A stretch of 64,000 bases of DNA, taken from positions 3,629,001 through 3,693,000 of the forward strand of contig NZ_CP041637.1 of NCBI RefSeq assembly GCF_007197735.1, given 5' to 3'. The position numbers were made by a program, and so were the translations under genes. Below the pieces are notes generated by a model, which was not told the origin of the DNA, made no database searches, and saw only the letters and a program-made list of their open reading frames with translations. Shown here in pieces: positions 55,088-64,000 of this stretch; the first letter of the stretch is position 1, and every line of letters begins with the position of its first letter. This DNA comes from Formosa sediminum (GTDB lineage Bacteria > Bacteroidota > Bacteroidia > Flavobacteriales > Flavobacteriaceae).

Positions 55088-56725
55088 TTAATTAATCTGC
55101 TCAATCAAGACTAAGCTCCAAGGACTCAATACGCGATCTAGAGTTAACTTTCCATTTTTACCTACTGTAACCAATTCCGTTTTAAGACCTTCGGCAGCTT
55201 GTTTCATCACTTTAATTTGCTCACGTGTTGGTGGCTCTGGTTTTCCCATTTGCTCCCAATAATTATAAATATTGCCATGATCCTTATCTAAAGTTTCCAA
55301 TTTAAATTGCGTACCCGGTTTTAAATCGGTGAGCTCCATTTTTAATTGACGTGATTTACCATTATCATATTTATCTATTTTTTTGATGCTTGAAGGCACC
55401 GCATTGTAATGGTCTTCTGGATAATTATACGCTAAAGCTACAATTTTTGCATCACCAGATTTACGACTTACAAATAGATAATCATTTTTAAATAATTTTT
55501 CATTACCTAAATGATGTAACATTCTATACGCATGATACGAAGGCTTCACTAAACCTTGATAATTTATCATACCGAACCCCCCATGAAAGATACTTTCTCC
55601 GCCGCCTTTTTCTTCAAAAATATCTGTAAAGGTCCAAAACGCTAACGAATTTGTTAACCCAATACAATCTAAGTTCACTTTAGCAATATACGCTGCTGGT
55701 GGTAAAAAATCGTGCATGGCATCTCTACTATTCGGACTCGTATTCCATTCGGTTAAATGGATTTCGGCATTTGGGTAAGCACTTTTTTTAATGGTTCTGT
55801 TTAACCATTCGATATCGTCTTTTGTAGAATTTACATATCTAGAAAAATCTTTTCCTTTTCCTGTAGTTGGATTAAATGGATAATCTGTAGGATATGGATG
55901 CGTCGACACAAAATCTACCGGAAGCTTTTCCTTCTCGCAATATGCTAAAAAGTCTTCTATCCAAGAGCCTTTCCATTCCAGATTGTTAATATTATCTGCG
56001 GTAAACGTAATTAAATCTCCATCTCTGCTTTCTACTTCGCCATCGTAACGCCCATCGGCTACAAAATTACTGCTTGATGGTCCGCCTACTTTTAAGCGAT
56101 TATCTACAGATCTTACTGCCAAAACAGATTGTTTATACAACTCGAAATATTGGGATTTGGTACCATCAAAAAATCCATAATATAAATTTGGTTCGTTCCA
56201 CACTTCAAAATACCAAGTTAACACCTCATCAATGCCATAACGGTCTACGCAGTGTTGCGTAAAGGCTTTTACTAAATTATGCCATTCGCCATACTTGGAT
56301 TCATCTGGAGTAATATTGGCTTTCCACCAAAATTGCGTTTTACTATTTTCGGCTGCCAATGGTGTTGGAAAAAATGCCAACTCTACAAACGGACGCACAT
56401 TTAAATCTAACATTCTATCAAACAAATCGTCTATATATTGCCAATTGTAAGTATACTTTCCATCTTTTTCAAATACAGGAAACATATCGTCGTGAAAAAT
56501 CCCATGAAATCTCACAAACTCGAATCCGCATTCTTCTTGTACCTTTTCTAACTGCGCTAACCAACCGGCACGTAAACCTTCGTTTGCACGACCTGCTCCT
56601 ACACTTTTGCTCCAAAAATGTTCAAATTTTTCGCCATTAGCCGTAGCATCTACCCGGACTTGCTTCTGGGCAAAGCCCAATTGAGCCATAAGTGCCACCA
56701 GCCCTGTAATAAATAGTTTTTTCAT
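55088..56725 (-). CDS. GH39 family glycoside hydrolase (beta-xylosidase-like), secreted
   Basis: A signal peptide (residues 1-19, ending GFAQ) precedes a TIM-barrel GH39 domain. The acid/base Glu178 lies in WYFEVWNEPNLYYGF and the nucleophile Glu326 in EIHLTEWNTS, both at their expected places. A C-terminal beta domain follows to 545 residues. GH39 enzymes release beta-linked xylose or iduronic/other residues with retention; which one applies here is open. It is the last gene of the minus-strand locus (14 nt after the GH43). Confidence 0.92.
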   Translation of the reverse strand: MKKLFITGLVALMAQLGFAQKQVRVDATANGEKFEHFWSKSVGAGRANEGLRAGWLAQLEKVQEECGFEFVRFHGIFHDDMFPVFEKDGKYTYNWQYIDDLFDRMLDLNVRPFVELAFFPTPLAAENSKTQFWWKANITPDESKYGEWHNLVKAFTQHCVDRYGIDEVLTWYFEVWNEPNLYYGFFDGTKSQYFELYKQSVLAVRSVDNRLKVGGPSSSNFVADGRYDGEVESRDGDLITFTADNINNLEWKGSWIEDFLAYCEKEKLPVDFVSTHPYPTDYPFNPTTGKGKDFSRYVNSTKDDIEWLNRTIKKSAYPNAEIHLTEWNTSPNSRDAMHDFLPPAAYIAKVNLDCIGLTNSLAFWTFTDIFEEKGGGESIFHGGFGMINYQGLVKPSYHAYRMLHHLGNEKLFKNDYLFVSRKSGDAKIVALAYNYPEDHYNAVPSSIKKIDKYDNGKSRQLKMELTDLKPGTQFKLETLDKDHGNIYNYWEQMGKPEPPTREQIKVMKQAAEGLKTELVTVGKNGKLTLDRVLSPWSLVLIEQIN

Positions 56726-56740
56726 TTTTATATTATTTAA

Positions 56741-58105
56741 TTATAGTTGTTTTTCATCTTCAAATACCTGTTCCAACTTCACATAATCTACAGCCAATTG
56801 CCCTGAAGAAGGTTTCCAATCTTTTTTAAAAATACGGATCAGATTATCGCCTGCTTTAAGTTCTATAATACCAAAATCGATTTCTGTAAAGGTTTTAGAT
56901 TGTGGGAATTTAAACTCGCGACACAAATGACTATTGATTAATATATTGTGATTAGACTCGCCTTCTGGTGATGCATATCTCACTTTAAATCTAAATTTAG
57001 ATGGTTTAGCAACTTGCGCTAACATAGACACATGGTCGTACGGATTATCGAAATTGGTTACATAGCCTTTTCCGCTATAGTCTTTTAAATACGTATCTAC
57101 AAACACATTGTACAAGTTGCCTCCTGAAGCAAAACCGCTTTCGGCTTCCAATTTCATTATCACTCTAGTTCGTTCAGCTTTTCCTAAACCTTTTTTTGAA
57201 GGGATAATTGGGATGATATTACCGGCTTTATCATATTCTAAATAATCTGCCATTGCAGATCGTGTTTCACTCAAACCACCAGACAACCAAGCGCTGTGAT
57301 AAAACATAATATCTTTCCCTTTATAATTTACCACACCACCGTGATTGGTCCCGCTTTGTCCTTCAAAATCATCTATAAATACACCTTTAAACGTGTATGG
57401 TCCTAAAGGTTTATCGGCTACGGCATAAAACATTTTTTCTGGCCAGCGTCTCGGCGTTAAGCCCGGATAAGTTAAATAATAGGTGCCATTACGTTTGTGT
57501 ACCCAAGGCCCTTCAAATACATGGGTTAACTGCTTGGTTAAATCAACATAGGTATCCGGTTTTATAGACATAAGGTCCTCATTCAATTCTGCGGCATAAC
57601 ACTGTCTATCGTGCCCCCAATACAGATAAGGTGTGCCATCGTCGTCAATAAAAATAGCTGGGTCCTGACCAAACTCTACGCCTTTTACATAACCTAAATC
57701 GGTAAAAGGACCTTGTGGGACATCGCTACGTGCAATTCCGGTTCTAAACAATCCAACACCCGCTTCTTTCATACAATACACCAAATAATATTGCCCACGA
57801 TAAAACGTGGCGTCCATGGCCCATGCATGACTCTCTGCCCACTCTACATTTTCTAAATGAAGAATACGGCCGTGATCTATCCAATTCACCATATCTGTTG
57901 TAGAAAAAGCGTGATAACCTGACATGCCGTAATGGTTATTAGACCCTGGCTCGTCGTGTGAGGTGTACACCCATAGTGTATTGGGATCGTCTGGCCAAAC
58001 ATGAGGTGATGGATCTGCTGTAAATACATTTGTGAAAATGGGATTTTGAGAGCCCCCAATTGTCACACTTAAAAGCGCTGTTAACAGTAATAATTTGGTT
58101 TTCAT
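56741..58105 (-). CDS. GH43 family glycoside hydrolase with C-terminal CBM-like domain
   Basis: The 454-residue secreted protein has a signal peptide (1-19) and a five-bladed GH43 propeller with its catalytic triad in place: Asp31 (TADPSP), Asp147 (GQDPAIF) and Glu197 (FEGPW). The region from about 315 (MKLEAESGFASGG ... QLAVDYVKLEQVF) has the CBM6/CBM35-like beta-sandwich pattern. GH43 enzymes invert alpha-L-arabinofuranosidic or beta-xylosidic links. It lies between GH39 and the beta-helix genes. Confidence 0.92.
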   Translation of the reverse strand: MKTKLLLLTALLSVTIGGSQNPIFTNVFTADPSPHVWPDDPNTLWVYTSHDEPGSNNHYGMSGYHAFSTTDMVNWIDHGRILHLENVEWAESHAWAMDATFYRGQYYLVYCMKEAGVGLFRTGIARSDVPQGPFTDLGYVKGVEFGQDPAIFIDDDGTPYLYWGHDRQCYAAELNEDLMSIKPDTYVDLTKQLTHVFEGPWVHKRNGTYYLTYPGLTPRRWPEKMFYAVADKPLGPYTFKGVFIDDFEGQSGTNHGGVVNYKGKDIMFYHSAWLSGGLSETRSAMADYLEYDKAGNIIPIIPSKKGLGKAERTRVIMKLEAESGFASGGNLYNVFVDTYLKDYSGKGYVTNFDNPYDHVSMLAQVAKPSKFRFKVRYASPEGESNHNILINSHLCREFKFPQSKTFTEIDFGIIELKAGDNLIRIFKKDWKPSSGQLAVDYVKLEQVFEDEKQL

Positions 58106-58148: not shown

Positions 58149-59501
58149 TTATCTTTTGTTGACTTTTATAAGCGTTCCTTTGTTTTCTATAATCTCACCA
58201 TTGGTGGTAATAATACTATTACTAGCCTGAACACCTATTTTAATAGGCATTTTGGTTTCGTTTCTTAAATTCAAATTGGTGGTTTGTGCCTCACCGTAAG
58301 GAGACATCGCTTCTCCATGCTCTGGATGTGTATACCCCACCAGAATAGGTAAATGTGTTTGACGCGTTTTTCCGTTTTCCGATTTTAGTACTATGGTATT
58401 ATCAGCCCCTTGAATGGTTGCTAAAGCGTGCACCAGACGGTCTGATTCTGCATCATCTACAATTAAATCGACTTTTACGCCACTACCTTCAACAAATAAT
58501 AATGGTCCGTAATTGGCATCGCCTTTACAATTTTTAACCACGGAATTATCTCCTATCCAATACCCGCGTTCTGTCCCTATAGTTGTACAATTTTCTACAT
58601 GCGCTGTGTTAAAACGCAATTCGAATCCGGCTCGTGTGTTTTTAGCGGTACAGTTTTTAAAGCTGATATTTTCGCATGTACCATAGGTTCTAAAACCGTC
58701 TTCGCAAAGGGATTTCATATAGCCTGGCGTTACCACATATTCCCCTTCCCGATTTTGTGTCCAGGTTTTAAAATTCACATCGAATGCTGGCCCCGAAGTT
58801 TCAGCCAGAATCTCGTCGGTTGAGCGGACTTCGCCTTCGGCATAACAATCTTCAAAATAGACATTCTTAGGATGTTGTTGAATAAAAAAACAATGCCCAA
58901 AAGACCGGTTATATACCTTACAACCATACAGTTTTGTCTCATTACCTGTAACCAAAAGACCACTGTGTTTACGGTGTTTTATCGTAGTTTCTTTTTGTTT
59001 TCCTTTTCCGAATAAATCACCATAGCCATACGGATAAGACCCTTTAACATATAATGTAATGCCTTTTAGAACATTAGATTCTCCAGCCACTTGAAGCACT
59101 GTACCGCCACGTGAGGTACCTTGTCCGATACATCTAATCGTAAGTCCAACAATTGTGTTATGAGTACCTGTAATTAAAAATTCGTCGGTGTGAATAGGCG
59201 GATTTAATACGGTTCTAATTTCGGTATCCAATTCTATTTCTACGCCTTCTAAGTTAAACACATTATTGCTCCCACTAAACGTAATGTATTGATAGTCTTG
59301 ATTATCTTTACGTGTTTTAAGCATGTCAGGAGTTAAATAATCGTTGAGTTTATATACTCCGGGCGCCATAGTAATGGTATTGCCACTTGCTGCTGCGTAT
59401 TTGGCAAGCTCTTTTAAGGAGCTGATTTTAATATCTTTGGCTTCTACAAACTGACTAACACATAGCAATCCAAAAAAGCATATTTTAAATATCATTTTCA
59501 T
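58149..59501 (-). CDS. Secreted right-handed beta-helix protein, paralogue 1
   Basis: The 450-residue protein has a signal peptide (1-21, ending VEAK) and a parallel beta-helix of short repeats (NTIVGLTIRCIGQG, NVLKGITLYVKGSY, ENCTTIGTERGYWIG). It shares with its two neighbours a block SYPYGYGDLFGKG (155-167), RSFGHCFFIQ (His203), RSTDEILAETSG (Asp229, Glu234) and a C-terminal jelly-roll-like tail. These conserved polar residues could form an active site of a glycan lyase, hydrolase or epimerase; I know no described family with this set. Substrate not deducible. Confidence 0.82.
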   Translation of the reverse strand: MKMIFKICFFGLLCVSQFVEAKDIKISSLKELAKYAAASGNTITMAPGVYKLNDYLTPDMLKTRKDNQDYQYITFSGSNNVFNLEGVEIELDTEIRTVLNPPIHTDEFLITGTHNTIVGLTIRCIGQGTSRGGTVLQVAGESNVLKGITLYVKGSYPYGYGDLFGKGKQKETTIKHRKHSGLLVTGNETKLYGCKVYNRSFGHCFFIQQHPKNVYFEDCYAEGEVRSTDEILAETSGPAFDVNFKTWTQNREGEYVVTPGYMKSLCEDGFRTYGTCENISFKNCTAKNTRAGFELRFNTAHVENCTTIGTERGYWIGDNSVVKNCKGDANYGPLLFVEGSGVKVDLIVDDAESDRLVHALATIQGADNTIVLKSENGKTRQTHLPILVGYTHPEHGEAMSPYGEAQTTNLNLRNETKMPIKIGVQASNSIITTNGEIIENKGTLIKVNKR

Positions 59502-59507
59502 TTATAA

Positions 59508-60914
59508 TTAGCGTTTTGTTCGGTTGGCATTATTTACCACATGTTCTGCCTCGGTGGCGTCTCGTACAGGTCCTACACTCTTTATTTTTGCATTTTTAGT
59601 ACCTTTAAATTTAATGACCTCAACCTCAGTTTGGTTGTCTAATTTAATATCTGTAGCATGCATCTTCGCATTTTCATTAAAATTGCCATAGCCCTCCCAA
59701 ACCGATAATTTAATAGCCATAGTTTCAGGGATAAATTTGGGGTCTGCTGTTTTAATAACAACATTGTGACCTGTACCATTTATTTTTGCTAATAAGGTAT
59801 TCGCTAATCCATTCCGGCTATCTAAAATCGTCATCTCTACTTTCGCATTTTTTGCATTGGTATACGGAATACAAAAGGCCTCGCCATATTTAGCATCGGC
59901 ACTACTATTTATTACCGTATCTCCATTCCCAATATTATATCCTGTAGCCACACAATCGCGTACCACACAATCCATTATAATATCTCCCGACGTGCTCAAA
60001 CCAGTACAAATCCCTCTTCGCATTTGGTTTACCGTACAATTTTTAATGGTCGTGTTTTTGGTTTTATGTCCGTTATATTCTGGATACATACGGATGCCGT
60101 CTTCACTAAGCGAAATGATTTCTCCTGGTAATATTTTACCATCTGCTGCCACGATGGTACCTTCAATATAATTGCCTTTAGCCGCGTAGAACTTCTTATC
60201 GAAACCATAGCCAGAAGTTTCTGCCAACATAGCATCAGTTGTTCGTAACAATCCATCGACTTGGCAGTTTTCAATTAAGGTGTTTTCTGCACCTTGTAAA
60301 AAGATAGCGTGCCCCATAGCGCGCATATGCACTTGGCAACCCAATAATTTTACATTTTTAGCAGGATACCCCACACGAATACCGTTCATTTTACGAACAT
60401 CGCCGCCACCTAAACCATACAAATAGCCGTAGCCCCACGGATTTGACCCTGAGGTTCGGACTTCTACATCCTTTAAAGTTACATGTTCACCAACGATGTT
60501 AAACATCTTGTTTTTACTTTGAAGTCCCGGTGTATCACCATAAGTCTCGATATACAAGCCTTCTAGCGTCACGTGATTTCCAGAAATTTCAATGGCACAA
60601 TACATACTATTGCCATCGTCACTTTTTATTAAATCGGGGCGACTAAATAACTTGGTGTCTACCATAAACCGAGCGCCTCTTAAATCGTAATACGAATTGT
60701 TACTGGTGATTTCTATGAATCTTATCTTTTCAGCATCATCAATTTGATAATTTCCTGGACTGAGTTTTACGTGAACATTATCCTGACTGACATAAGTTTT
60801 AAAATCCTTAAGTGTGTGTACCTCTATTGCCTGCTTCTCTCCTATATTAGTTTGTGTGTGCACAGTAAAAGTGACACTTAAAAGAAGTACTAAGGTTACA
60901 AATTGTTTTATCAT
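59508..60914 (-). CDS. Secreted right-handed beta-helix protein, paralogue 2
   Basis: A 468-residue paralogue with signal peptide (1-21, VHTQ) and the N-terminal segment SQDNVHVKLSPGNYQIDD shared in form with paralogue 3. The conserved block is SNPWGYGYLYGLGGG (from 157), MRAMGHAIFLQ (His202), LRTTDAMLAETSG (Asp227, Glu232). It differs from the other two in that KHS is replaced by NGIRVG and PAFDV by YGFDK, so its substrate or activity may differ. It lies 6 nt after paralogue 1's upstream boundary, so the two are co-transcribed. Confidence 0.82.
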   Translation of the reverse strand: MIKQFVTLVLLLSVTFTVHTQTNIGEKQAIEVHTLKDFKTYVSQDNVHVKLSPGNYQIDDAEKIRFIEITSNNSYYDLRGARFMVDTKLFSRPDLIKSDDGNSMYCAIEISGNHVTLEGLYIETYGDTPGLQSKNKMFNIVGEHVTLKDVEVRTSGSNPWGYGYLYGLGGGDVRKMNGIRVGYPAKNVKLLGCQVHMRAMGHAIFLQGAENTLIENCQVDGLLRTTDAMLAETSGYGFDKKFYAAKGNYIEGTIVAADGKILPGEIISLSEDGIRMYPEYNGHKTKNTTIKNCTVNQMRRGICTGLSTSGDIIMDCVVRDCVATGYNIGNGDTVINSSADAKYGEAFCIPYTNAKNAKVEMTILDSRNGLANTLLAKINGTGHNVVIKTADPKFIPETMAIKLSVWEGYGNFNENAKMHATDIKLDNQTEVEVIKFKGTKNAKIKSVGPVRDATEAEHVVNNANRTKR

Positions 60915-60964
60915 TTGATTTTGTTTAGTCTGTTTTAAGTAAAATATTATGATGTAGGATTTAC

Positions 60965-62419
60965 TTATTTCCCGGTATATTTTAGAGAATTATTCGTCCC
61001 TAAATCTGTAATTTCACCTTTAGATTCTCCTGAAACTCCAGAGCTTTTATCTGATAAATACACCGGATAGTTTGTAAGATTATGAAGCTCAAAATCGAAA
61101 CCTTTAAAGTTATTTTGGTTAGGCAGATTCCCATGTAATAACCTGATATTCTTTTTATCGCCACCAACCTGAATTTTTAATCCTTGGGCTGCACCTTGAC
61201 TAGAACCACGGAATGTAATTTTGTGTTCACTACCTCCAATATAGGCGATATTCCCTGAGCCATTATAATACGGTTCTTTAGAATCTAATAGTGTGATATC
61301 TGCATTATACGATTTATCGCGTTCGTAAGTCGATGCATATGCCGGCCCATAAGTAACATCTGCTTTACAATTTACCAATTCGCCCGACCCTAACGAAAAG
61401 CCGTTTTCGCAGCCAATAGCCACACAGCCTTCCACGCGTTTTTTTCCTGTAGCATGAGCAATAGTGACCCCTGTTCTCATATATTTTACTGTACAATTTA
61501 ACACGGTAACATTAGACGTTCCTCGTCTGTAGTTTTTTCCATCAATTACGGTTTCTCCGCCATCGTAAGCACGAATCCCGGCCTCTCCTGTACTAAGCAT
61601 ATAGTCTTTTGGAAGCTTATATCCCCAAACGGTCATAAAGTCTACATCGAATGCTGGCCCTGAAGTTTCTGCCAACATATCGTCGGTTTTACGCATTTCG
61701 CCTTCTACAACGCAGCCTTCAATTATCGGGTTATTTGCTGCTTGCATAAAAATGCAATGTCCATAACTTCTATGTGTAAATTTTGAATCTTTTAAATGAT
61801 TTGATTCTCCACGGACCAAACAAGCACTATGTTTTTTATGTGGAATAACCGATTTTCCGCCTTTCCCAAAAGCATCGCCATAACCATAAGGAAAAGACCC
61901 TTTTGTAGTAACATTAAATCCCTCTACACGATTATGTGAACCATCTATTACAATGTTGTTTGCACGATGTGCAGGATGGTCGTGTACAGAACCTACATCG
62001 ACTAAGGTTAAGTTTTTTAATACATTTTTGTTTCCTATAATTTGAATCTCATAAACCTGAAATTTCCCAAAAGCTTGCAACACTTTTGTATCTACATTTA
62101 TGGTTACTCCAGTAAAATCGTAAGTGCTATTATTCCCTTCAAAAAGCAATAATACCTTGCTGGTATTTTTAATTATGGTTTCTTTAGTGTATAATCCGTT
62201 TTTTACATCGTCGGCCGTAATAGTATACACACCCGGCTTCATCTTTACATGTACATTATCGTCGTCTAGAAACGGTTTTAGCTCTTCTAACGAATTTACC
62301 ATCGTTTGTGCATTTACCCCTAAACTTGTAAAGGCAAAGATTCCTAGTAGGCAGATGACATAGCATTTTAGTGTGGAATGAAAATTTGTTTTTTTAAGAT
62401 TGAAAAGAAATGTTGTCAT
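60965..62419 (-). CDS. Secreted right-handed beta-helix protein, paralogue 3
   Basis: A 484-residue paralogue with a longer N-terminus; the hydrophobic core CYVICLLGIFAFTSLGVNAQ (19-38) is a signal peptide, preceded by about 18 polar residues, so a later start is possible but no better ATG exists. The conserved block is SFPYGYGDAFGKGGK (from 175), RSYGHCIFMQ (His221), RKTDDMLAETSG (Asp246, Glu251) and PAFDVDF. It is closer to paralogue 1 than to 2. It is the first of the three genes, and transcription probably starts in the 189-nt spacer upstream. Confidence 0.82.
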   Translation of the reverse strand: MTTFLFNLKKTNFHSTLKCYVICLLGIFAFTSLGVNAQTMVNSLEELKPFLDDDNVHVKMKPGVYTITADDVKNGLYTKETIIKNTSKVLLLFEGNNSTYDFTGVTINVDTKVLQAFGKFQVYEIQIIGNKNVLKNLTLVDVGSVHDHPAHRANNIVIDGSHNRVEGFNVTTKGSFPYGYGDAFGKGGKSVIPHKKHSACLVRGESNHLKDSKFTHRSYGHCIFMQAANNPIIEGCVVEGEMRKTDDMLAETSGPAFDVDFMTVWGYKLPKDYMLSTGEAGIRAYDGGETVIDGKNYRRGTSNVTVLNCTVKYMRTGVTIAHATGKKRVEGCVAIGCENGFSLGSGELVNCKADVTYGPAYASTYERDKSYNADITLLDSKEPYYNGSGNIAYIGGSEHKITFRGSSQGAAQGLKIQVGGDKKNIRLLHGNLPNQNNFKGFDFELHNLTNYPVYLSDKSSGVSGESKGEITDLGTNNSLKYTGK

Positions 62420-62608: not shown

Positions 62609-64000
62609 TTACAATTTCACTGGTGTTTCATCTCCATTAAAGCTAATGGTTTGAACTTGCCCACCAATCATTTCAACTTTAAAGGCCATAGGATTTTCAG
62701 AAAAATCTATAAAAGATCCTTTCCCTTTTGTTATTAGAAGCGTTTTATCGGCTTCTGAATAGTTTAAGTTAACCTCAGAGTAAGCGCCGTTTTCATAATC
62801 ATAAGTTTCACTATCATCAAAATACAAAGTAAATTCCGCATCGGCTCCAGGGTACACCTTAAGAATGATAGGTTCATTCGTTTTCTGTGTAGCATACTGC
62901 ACTTTTGGTCCGAATGGTATAATAGAGCCTGCTTTAACAAAAAGAGGTGTTTCATCTAAATCGGCTTTTACAGTAATCTCCTGTCCGCCTTCAAGTTTTT
63001 CATTCGTCCAGTAGTTGTACCATGTTCCTTTTGGAAAATACATAGTTTTTTCGCGTTGCTCGTATTGGGTAACTATACCAACCATAAAAGATTCTCCAAA
63101 TAAAAACTGATCACTAATTCCCCAGACCTTTTTATCATTTGGATATTGATATGCTAACGGACTCATGAGTTGTTTACTGTTGGTTGTAATTTGCCAAGCT
63201 TGTGAATAAATATATGGCATAAGTTGGTAGCGTAAATCAATAAATTTGCGCGCAGTACTTTCAAATGCTTCATTATAACGCCAAATCTCGGTTTCCGAAA
63301 CATAACCGTGAATTCTAAATATTGGACTGAAGGTTCCAAACTGAAACCAACGGGTTAATAATTCAATAAATTCTGGATTGGTATATTGGTTATCGAATTC
63401 TGGATTAATGGATCTTGAATCTCTAAAAAATCCGCCAATATCATGCGTCCAATATGGAATTCCTGCCATGGTAAAATTAAGACCAGCAGCAATTTGCTCT
63501 TCCAATTGTTCCCAAGACGCTTCTACATCTCCAGACCACGAGGTTGCACCATAACGTTGTTGTCCGGCATAAGCTGAACGCGTTAAATTAAACACACGCT
63601 CTTTTGGAAATTCCTTACGACGGCCATCGTACATGGCTTTAGTTACAAGAAGTGAATACGGGTTTTGAACTTCTTCAAAACGACCAACAGCAGTTAACTG
63701 AGTAGCATCATTAACACCTTCCGGCTCTGTACCATCTAACCAAATAGAACTGACTCCTTTGTGAAACATAGAGTCGCTTAACATACGATAAAACCGTTCG
63801 CTTACCCCATTGTCGTAAATATCAATGTAGTTACTACTCTTAATTTTTTTAAGGTTGTATTTTTCCTCTAGCGCTTCATTTTTAACCTCTGGCCAAACAG
63901 ATACCATTAGTTTTAAATGTAATGATTTTAGGTCTGATAACATTCCATCTGGATCTGGATATTTTGCAGGATCCCATTCCGGACCTTTTGTGCCTTTTGG
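62609..64000 (-). CDS. GH31 family glycoside hydrolase, C-terminal part (partial at window edge)
   Basis: The frame is open to base 64000 and continues outside; 463 codons are visible. The catalytic nucleophile is the Asp in SIWLDGTEPEG (visible residue 89) and the acid/base is the Asp in SWSGDVEASW (about 158). The proximal beta domain follows, with VWGISDQFLFGESFMVGIV and FPKGTWYNYWTNEKLEGGQ. GH31 enzymes cleave alpha-glucosidic or alpha-xylosidic bonds with retention; the WLDGTEPE type includes alpha-xylosidases, but specificity is not certain. It is the most upstream gene of the locus inside the window. Confidence 0.92.
   Translation of the reverse strand, partial: PKGTKGPEWDPAKYPDPDGMLSDLKSLHLKLMVSVWPEVKNEALEEKYNLKKIKSSNYIDIYDNGVSERFYRMLSDSMFHKGVSSIWLDGTEPEGVNDATQLTAVGRFEEVQNPYSLLVTKAMYDGRRKEFPKERVFNLTRSAYAGQQRYGATSWSGDVEASWEQLEEQIAAGLNFTMAGIPYWTHDIGGFFRDSRSINPEFDNQYTNPEFIELLTRWFQFGTFSPIFRIHGYVSETEIWRYNEAFESTARKFIDLRYQLMPYIYSQAWQITTNSKQLMSPLAYQYPNDKKVWGISDQFLFGESFMVGIVTQYEQREKTMYFPKGTWYNYWTNEKLEGGQEITVKADLDETPLFVKAGSIIPFGPKVQYATQKTNEPIILKVYPGADAEFTLYFDDSETYDYENGAYSEVNLNYSEADKTLLITKGKGSFIDFSENPMAFKVEMIGGQVQTISFNGDETPVKL

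Follow-up and report, generated by a model that had tools for sequence, protein, structure and literature searches.

The window analyzed here, a stretch of 64,000 nucleotides from Formosa sediminum (assembly GCF_007197735.1, contig NZ_CP041637.1, positions 3,629,001 to 3,693,000), contains three adjacent genes, P1, P2, and P3, that probably encode FdlA-family lyases of a locus directed at brown-algal sulfated fucoglucuronomannan, with P2 being a lyase that lacks the Lys141 of FdlA. This assignment is read from sequence, and the homology, fold, residue map, clade structure, and gene neighborhood described below are observed. FdlA and FdlB from Flavobacterium sp. SA-0082 are endo-fucoglucuronomannan lyases with structures deposited as PDB 7xz7-7xzf, and FdlA converts sulfated fucoglucuronomannan to unsaturated trisaccharides by metal-independent beta-elimination (PMC9410043). 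Lyases for the glucuronomannan parts of fucoidans are rare (PMC9410043). The family itself is known; what is new is that P2 represents a sizeable Lys141-less lineage outside the published FdlA mechanism.

Three Members of the FdlA Family

P1 (58149..59501), P2 (59508..60914), and P3 (60965..62419) are uninterrupted open reading frames (ORFs) of 450, 468, and 484 amino acids on the minus strand, arranged head to tail with gaps of 6 bases between P1 and P2 and 50 bases between P2 and P3. They are paralogues well beyond chance, with mutual BLASTP E values of 1.5e-36 to 2.3e-55 at 27-34% identity. Against FdlA (PDB 7xzf), phmmer matched P3 over nearly its full length (residues 38-480, E 1.5e-158), P1 over residues 25-433 (E 1.9e-50), and P2 at E 1.3e-37. 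By homology over the catalytic beta-helix domain, P1 and P3 fall among the FdlA-type lyases, P3 as a close homologue (phmmer, residue map, and AlphaFold) and P1 as a member of a separate clade (phmmer and residue map), and P2 falls within the FdlA family, in a Lys141-less clade, by sequence homology and fold. The predicted beta-helix fold is supported for P1 by homology to the solved FdlA, and for P2 and P3 by the same homology together with AlphaFold models (predicted local distance difference test scores of 91.4 and 93.9, respectively).

The likeness to FdlA extends over most of the beta-helix and the fold in all three proteins. With respect to the beta-helix polysaccharide lyase families PL1, PL3, PL6, PL9, and PL31, PL6 entries and one rhamnogalacturonan lyase rank far below FdlA in a comparison of folds, and the mannuronan C5-epimerases AlgE4 and AlgE6 (2pyg, 2pyh, and 5lw3) are among the closest known systems. 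Beyond FdlA, the PDB sequence search returned nothing below E 0.04 for P3 and nothing up to E 10 for P1 and P2; Pfam and NCBIfam gave generic beta-helix matches or nothing for the three proteins, and the literature search, in the accessible parts of its sources, gave no CAZy family number for FdlA. The original prediction, made from the DNA letters, of carbohydrate-active beta-helix proteins in a glycan locus is borne out by this homology, but the family it took to be undescribed is already described, as the search against solved structures matched all three proteins to the characterized FdlA, for which both structures and mutants exist (PMC9410043).

Unlike FdlA, which carries F5/8-type and sorting-tail domains at its C-terminus, P1-P3 lack such domains, and Pfam found neither a carbohydrate-binding module (CBM) nor a sorting-tail domain in them at E values up to 1. 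Secretion of P1-P3 is putative, from N-terminal hydrophobic stretches judged by eye, and because no CBM or sorting-tail domain was found by Pfam, the periplasm would be as likely a location as the cell exterior.

Active-Site Residues

Mutation of any of seven FdlA residues, D137, K141, H176, F179, E236, R240, and Y242, abolishes activity, and Lys141 is the proposed general base, the K141A mutant being inactive (PMC9410043). All seven have counterparts in P3 (D182, K186, H221, F224, E279, R283, and Y285) and in P1 (D162, K166, H203, F206, E267, R271, and Y273), whereas P2 retains five (H202, F205, E271, R275, and Y277) and differs in having Y164 at the D137 position and L168 at the K141 position. 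Because it keeps five of the seven, P2 is treated here as a homologue within the FdlA family, and a proven FdlA-type mechanism is not ascribed to it. In translation, the D137/K141 site reads DLFGK in P1 (residues 162-166; 59004..59018), DAFGK in P3 (residues 182-186; 61862..61876), and YLYGL in P2 (residues 164-168; 60411..60425), all on the minus strand, and the P2 changes sit just after PWGYG, which is PYGYG in P1 and P3. Elsewhere in P2, and likewise on the minus strand, H202 (60309..60311) corresponds to FdlA His176, the segment E271-Y277 (EDGIRMY; 60084..60104) carries the equivalents of Glu236, Arg240, and Tyr242, and K175 (60390..60392) corresponds to FdlA Lys151 (numbered by counting along the P3-FdlA alignment; K196 in P3), which is not among the FdlA mutants described (PMC9410043).

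The original prediction had proposed a shared candidate active site made up of a His, an Asp, and a Glu, the latter two in a TDxxLAETSG block. The positions it gave are exact (His203/202/221, Asp229/227/246, and Glu234/232/251 in P1/P2/P3, along with PYGYG/PWGYG), and the His, equivalent to the essential His176 of FdlA, stands as an active-site residue. The Asp and Glu are less well supported; they vary in the family and lie outside the FdlA mutant set (PMC9410043). In the P3 model, the TDxxLAETSG block forms short helices (245-249 and 255-258) within a long loop, which by its position appears to be the groove side-wall loop of the FdlA paper, and the conserved residues would be gathered in one groove, judging from that paper and from secondary structure (PMC9410043). 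The Asp and Glu were set aside as main catalytic candidates, being variable and mapping to this apparent groove-wall loop. The suggestion that P2 is specialized fared better, its weightiest changes being those following PWGYG (Asp137 to Tyr164 and Lys141 to Leu168).

Conservation and Clade Structure

The family was sampled from 76 loci of a genome collection (89 candidates, of which the best 80 were kept) and six matches in the window's genome; ORFs of at least 200 amino acids with a match at E 1e-5 or better numbered 154, and 144 members were left after removal of repeats. Lys is found at position 141 in 96 of these, Leu in 26, and Ile in 22, such that Lys141 is missing in 48 members, and position 137 is also variable (Asp 80, Ser 29, Tyr 17, Glu 13, Asn 3, and His 2). 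By contrast, H176, E236, and Lys151 are present in all 144 members, and R240, Y242, and R272 in 143, the sole deviation coming from a truncated 285-amino-acid ORF; at position 179, 137 members have Phe and 7 have Tyr. Two peptide patterns, of which one contains H176 and F179, served to fetch the loci, and H176 is kept in all 69 members that lie outside that pattern. The Asp and Glu of TDxxLAETSG are found in 115 and 136 of the 144 members, respectively.

In trees built without the motif columns, the members fall into the P3 clade (54), the P1 clade (17), a sister clade of P1 (12), the P2 clade (34, all Lys141-less), and clade IV (14, all Lys141-less, including two copies from elsewhere in the window's genome), with 13 others unassigned. 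FdlA itself is absent from the trees and is provisionally placed with the P3 clade by search scores (E 1.5e-158, against 1.9e-50 and 1.3e-37). In a 63-row subset that excludes two rows with very long branches, each of the five clades is split off by a branch with a Shimodaira-Hasegawa-like approximate likelihood ratio of at least 95. The state at position 141 requires two changes on the trees, and a single Lys141-less clade is not rejected (approximately unbiased test, p-AU 0.407).

The three genes had been taken for a local triplication. Recent tandem triplication is ruled out, as each gene sits in its own deep clade and has close relatives in other genera (84% identity for P2, 80% for P3, and 78% for P1). 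Among the 76 loci, 38 hold at least two members and 24 at least two of the five named clades inside the stretch that was fetched, counts that are approximate owing to overlapping loci and dropped repeats. The P1, P2, and P3 clades occur together at four loci, L007 (Jejuia), L049 and L057 (Mariniflexile), and L077 (Flavobacterium), and three or four clades out of the five are represented at each of L014, L015, L051, L053, and L078. Because of these separate deep clades and their co-occurrence at other loci, the trio is an old set that is partly kept together elsewhere. The family is nonetheless patchy: at E 0.001, 12 of the 298 sampled genomes of the window's taxonomic family have a match, three of them weak (E above 1e-5), and five of the six genomes of its genus hold an FdlA-family match, the window's own genome being included in both counts.

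Genomic Context of the Lys141-less Members

Whole-genome searches covered 16 genomes for 17 loci, namely 16 of the 17 loci with Lys141-less members only (L082 was omitted) and L079, which also has a Lys141 member. Six of these genomes (G005, G008, G011, G013, G014, and G016) contain just one family member, which is always Lys141-less, and the other ten have 2-14 matches. Four of the six (G008, G011, G014, and G016) have a gene of glycoside hydrolase (GH) family 88 (PF07470), the family of unsaturated glucuronyl hydrolases, on the same contig and no more than 10 kb away; the corresponding gene is about 38 kb away in G013 and on another contig in G005. G005 and G014 are metagenome assemblies and possibly incomplete. 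Three of the four nearby GH88 proteins (L070, L073, and L081) are also similar to the GH88 protein of the window's genome. Under random gene placement, the chance of at least four in six is 1.6e-7 (gene counts tallied by hand), a value that overstates the case because sugar-degrading genes cluster.

In the window's genome (G000), a sulfatase gene and then a GH88 gene come after the Lys141-less clade IV copy at 2265962, and the product of this GH88 gene matches a solved unsaturated glucuronyl hydrolase (1vd5, E 3.5e-75). These GH88 neighbors are circumstantial evidence, and they fit with unsaturated uronyl products of the Lys141-less members. As a side observation, this region (L088:9452-19900; G000 2.265-2.276 Mb) comprises the clade IV FdlA homologue with CBM6, the sulfatase, the GH88 gene, and a long ORF that looks SusC-like by eye. 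The copy at 2713536 adjoins an alpha-L-fucosidase gene (PF01120).

Proposed Reaction and Alternative Explanations

We infer the substrate, the reaction of all three proteins, and the identity of the base as follows. The substrate would have a backbone of 4-linked beta-glucuronic acid (GlcA) and 2-linked alpha-mannose (Man), with sulfated fucose branches and, in some algae, xylose. Like FdlA, P3 would cleave between Man and GlcA through metal-independent beta-elimination, which produces a 4,5-unsaturated GlcA end, and P1 may carry out the same reaction, which is proposed with lower confidence. P2 is most likely also a lyase, acting via the conserved His202, Lys175, Glu271, Arg275, and Tyr277, of which Tyr277 would be the best candidate for the acid and perhaps for the base too, and its changed loop may tune the accepted decoration or uronate. 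Lyases acting on D-GlcA use syn elimination, often with one Tyr serving as both base and acid. If P2 is a lyase, its base must be a residue that P2 has, and the family-wide K151, H176, R240, and Y242 are candidates.

A bolder proposal, which we advance only tentatively, is that the FdlA base assignment fails family-wide, with Lys141 being a clade-specific loop residue and proton abstraction falling either to the invariant Tyr242, which would alternate between base and acid, or to the invariant Lys151. P2 and the other Lys141-less members, one third of those sampled, would then be lyases acting on a differently decorated or configured uronate, and P1-P3 would be three non-redundant lyases for one branched glucuronomannan. 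P1-P3 may plausibly target separate positions within one glycan.

Four other explanations were considered, the first being a P2 lyase with a swapped base, in which Tyr166 (Phe139 in FdlA) or Glu123 replaces Lys141. Position 139 is Tyr in 44 of the 48 Lys141-less members vs one of the 96 others, and Glu occupies the site equivalent to P2 Glu123 in 44 of the 48 vs 10 of the 96. However, four Lys141-less members have Phe at 139 (L052, L063, L072, and L074) and the Glu is missing from four (L062, L064, L068, and L074), L074 being without both; because each is missing in some, neither residue can serve as an essential base throughout the Lys141-less members, and a swapped base is disfavored and seems unlikely. 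It is less likely still that P2 is a binding protein or a dead enzyme retained to partner P1 and P3. P2 is indeed altered at two of the seven mutation-sensitive FdlA positions, but the other five and further family-invariant residues are present, the nearest relative of P2 is 84% identical (vs 80% for P3 and 78% for P1), and Lys141-less members stand alone in six genomes. It is very improbable that the P2 lineage consists of GlcA C5-epimerases, abstracting the C5 proton without elimination and so preparing the chain for a second lyase. We regard as similarly remote the idea that P1-P3 are hydrolases of fucose linkages, that is, endo-fucoidanases for which the lyase label is wrong or incomplete. 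FdlA and FdlB degrade galactofucan-type fucoidans without a product detectable at 232 nm (PMC6267234), but the activity of the N-terminal domain of FdlA (FdlA-NTD) was followed at 232 nm, its unsaturated trisaccharide was identified by mass spectrometry, and the residue that docking brings to the scissile bond is Tyr242 instead of an acid pair (PMC9410043).

Several points weigh against the assignment of P1-P3 as fucoglucuronomannan lyases. The fucoidans on which FdlA and FdlB act without a 232-nm signal have no known Man/GlcA backbone (PMC6267234), and because of these observations even the reference activity is in dispute. With identities to P3 of only 33-34%, P1 and P2 might have other glycans as substrates. 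Since K141A FdlA is inactive (PMC9410043), P2, lacking this Lys, could have a different activity or be inactive. Invariance is no proof of a catalytic role: conservation alone cannot name the base, because R272 is as conserved as R240 and Y242 and yet the R272A mutant of FdlA shows a negligible effect and nearly full activity (PMC9410043). With regard to GH88, the PF07470 match in G014 is partial and weak (39.5 bits) and was not recovered by the similarity search. GH88-like genes occur in the fetched flanks of 3 of 17 loci with Lys141-less members only, 3 of 37 with Lys141 members only, and 2 of 22 with members of each kind, and these flank counts by themselves give no clear contrast between lineages, the genomes with a single family member providing the stronger signal. 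Finally, no GH88 gene was found in the window's own cluster, the two PF07470 genes of the genome lying at 2.27 and 3.42 Mb.

The Locus and Its Likely Substrate

P1-P3 are flanked on one side by a GH31 gene (62609..64000, running past the window; 879 amino acids in the genome; PF01055, E 3.5e-72) and on the other by a GH43 gene with CBM35 (56741..58105; PF04616, E 4.9e-38) and a GH39 gene (55088..56725; PF01229, E 7.5e-101), all on the minus strand; ORFs, Pfam, and BLASTP agree with the earlier description of three adjacent paralogues in one orientation between these genes. Beyond the window follow the GH31 gene, a 458-amino-acid unknown protein, a PF00884 sulfatase, a 686-amino-acid beta-helix protein, two GH95 genes, a second PF00884 sulfatase, and a two-component sensor gene (1391 amino acids, of which the first 934 were scanned). 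The ORFs from GH39 to the sensor gene showed no SusC/D pair. About 7-17 kb past the sensor lie genes for a lactaldehyde reductase-type protein (below the family cut-off), an FGGY kinase (reaching no family cut-off), L-fucose isomerase, a rhamnulose-phosphate aldolase-type protein, aldehyde dehydrogenase, and FucP.

The nearest solved enzymes are beta-xylosidases for GH39 (PDB phmmer E 3.9e-90) and a xylosidase/arabinofuranosidase and beta-xylosidases for GH43 (E 1.5e-53), and these xylosidase-type assignments agree with the fucosylated, xylose-bearing glucuronomannans described from brown algae (PMC3497013). Predicted loci of North Sea Flavobacteriia for fucose-containing sulfated polysaccharides likewise name GH95, GH43, and GH39, all present here, whereas FdlA-type lyases are not named in the accessible descriptions of those loci (PMC6298971).

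Further ORFs of this region are recorded as side observations. About 46 kb past P3, G000:C1:3737553-3742283 (L085:9553-14283) encodes a 1576-amino-acid FdlA homologue, the paralogue at 3737622, that retains all seven mutation-sensitive residues and, besides a sorting tail, has matches to CBM6 (six) and of CBM35 type. The 686-amino-acid protein (G000:C1:3698003-3700063; L083:8003-10063) includes a beta-helix portion with weak similarity to mannuronan C5-epimerases (E 6.5e-6), and the 458-amino-acid protein (G000:C1:3694468-3695844; L083:4468-5844) has a CarbopepD_reg-like N-terminus, no PDB match below E 0.25, and a C-terminal end that by eye looks like that of the 686-amino-acid protein. Two three-ORF blocks about 17 kb apart (G000:C1:3744350-3749635 and 3761101-3766386) are apparent copies; by their printed ends, the 657/656- and 564-amino-acid ORFs are near-identical and the 458/459-amino-acid ORFs similar.

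In the degradation route proposed here, the two GH95 enzymes, the sulfatases, and the xylosidase-type GH39 and GH43 would strip side groups, and the nearby fucose catabolism genes would use the released fucose. A division of labor is plausible, in which the large sorted 1576-amino-acid enzyme would cut outside the cell and P1-P3 would finish the process in the periplasm.

Concluding Remarks

Fucoidans, which are slow to be degraded, have been linked to carbon sequestration (PMC12786026). The locus described here offers a natural set of three distinct FdlA-family lineages, and P2, as a natural Lys141 variant, makes the published base assignment testable. In addition, P1- and P2-type enzymes may offer product specificities that FdlA does not.
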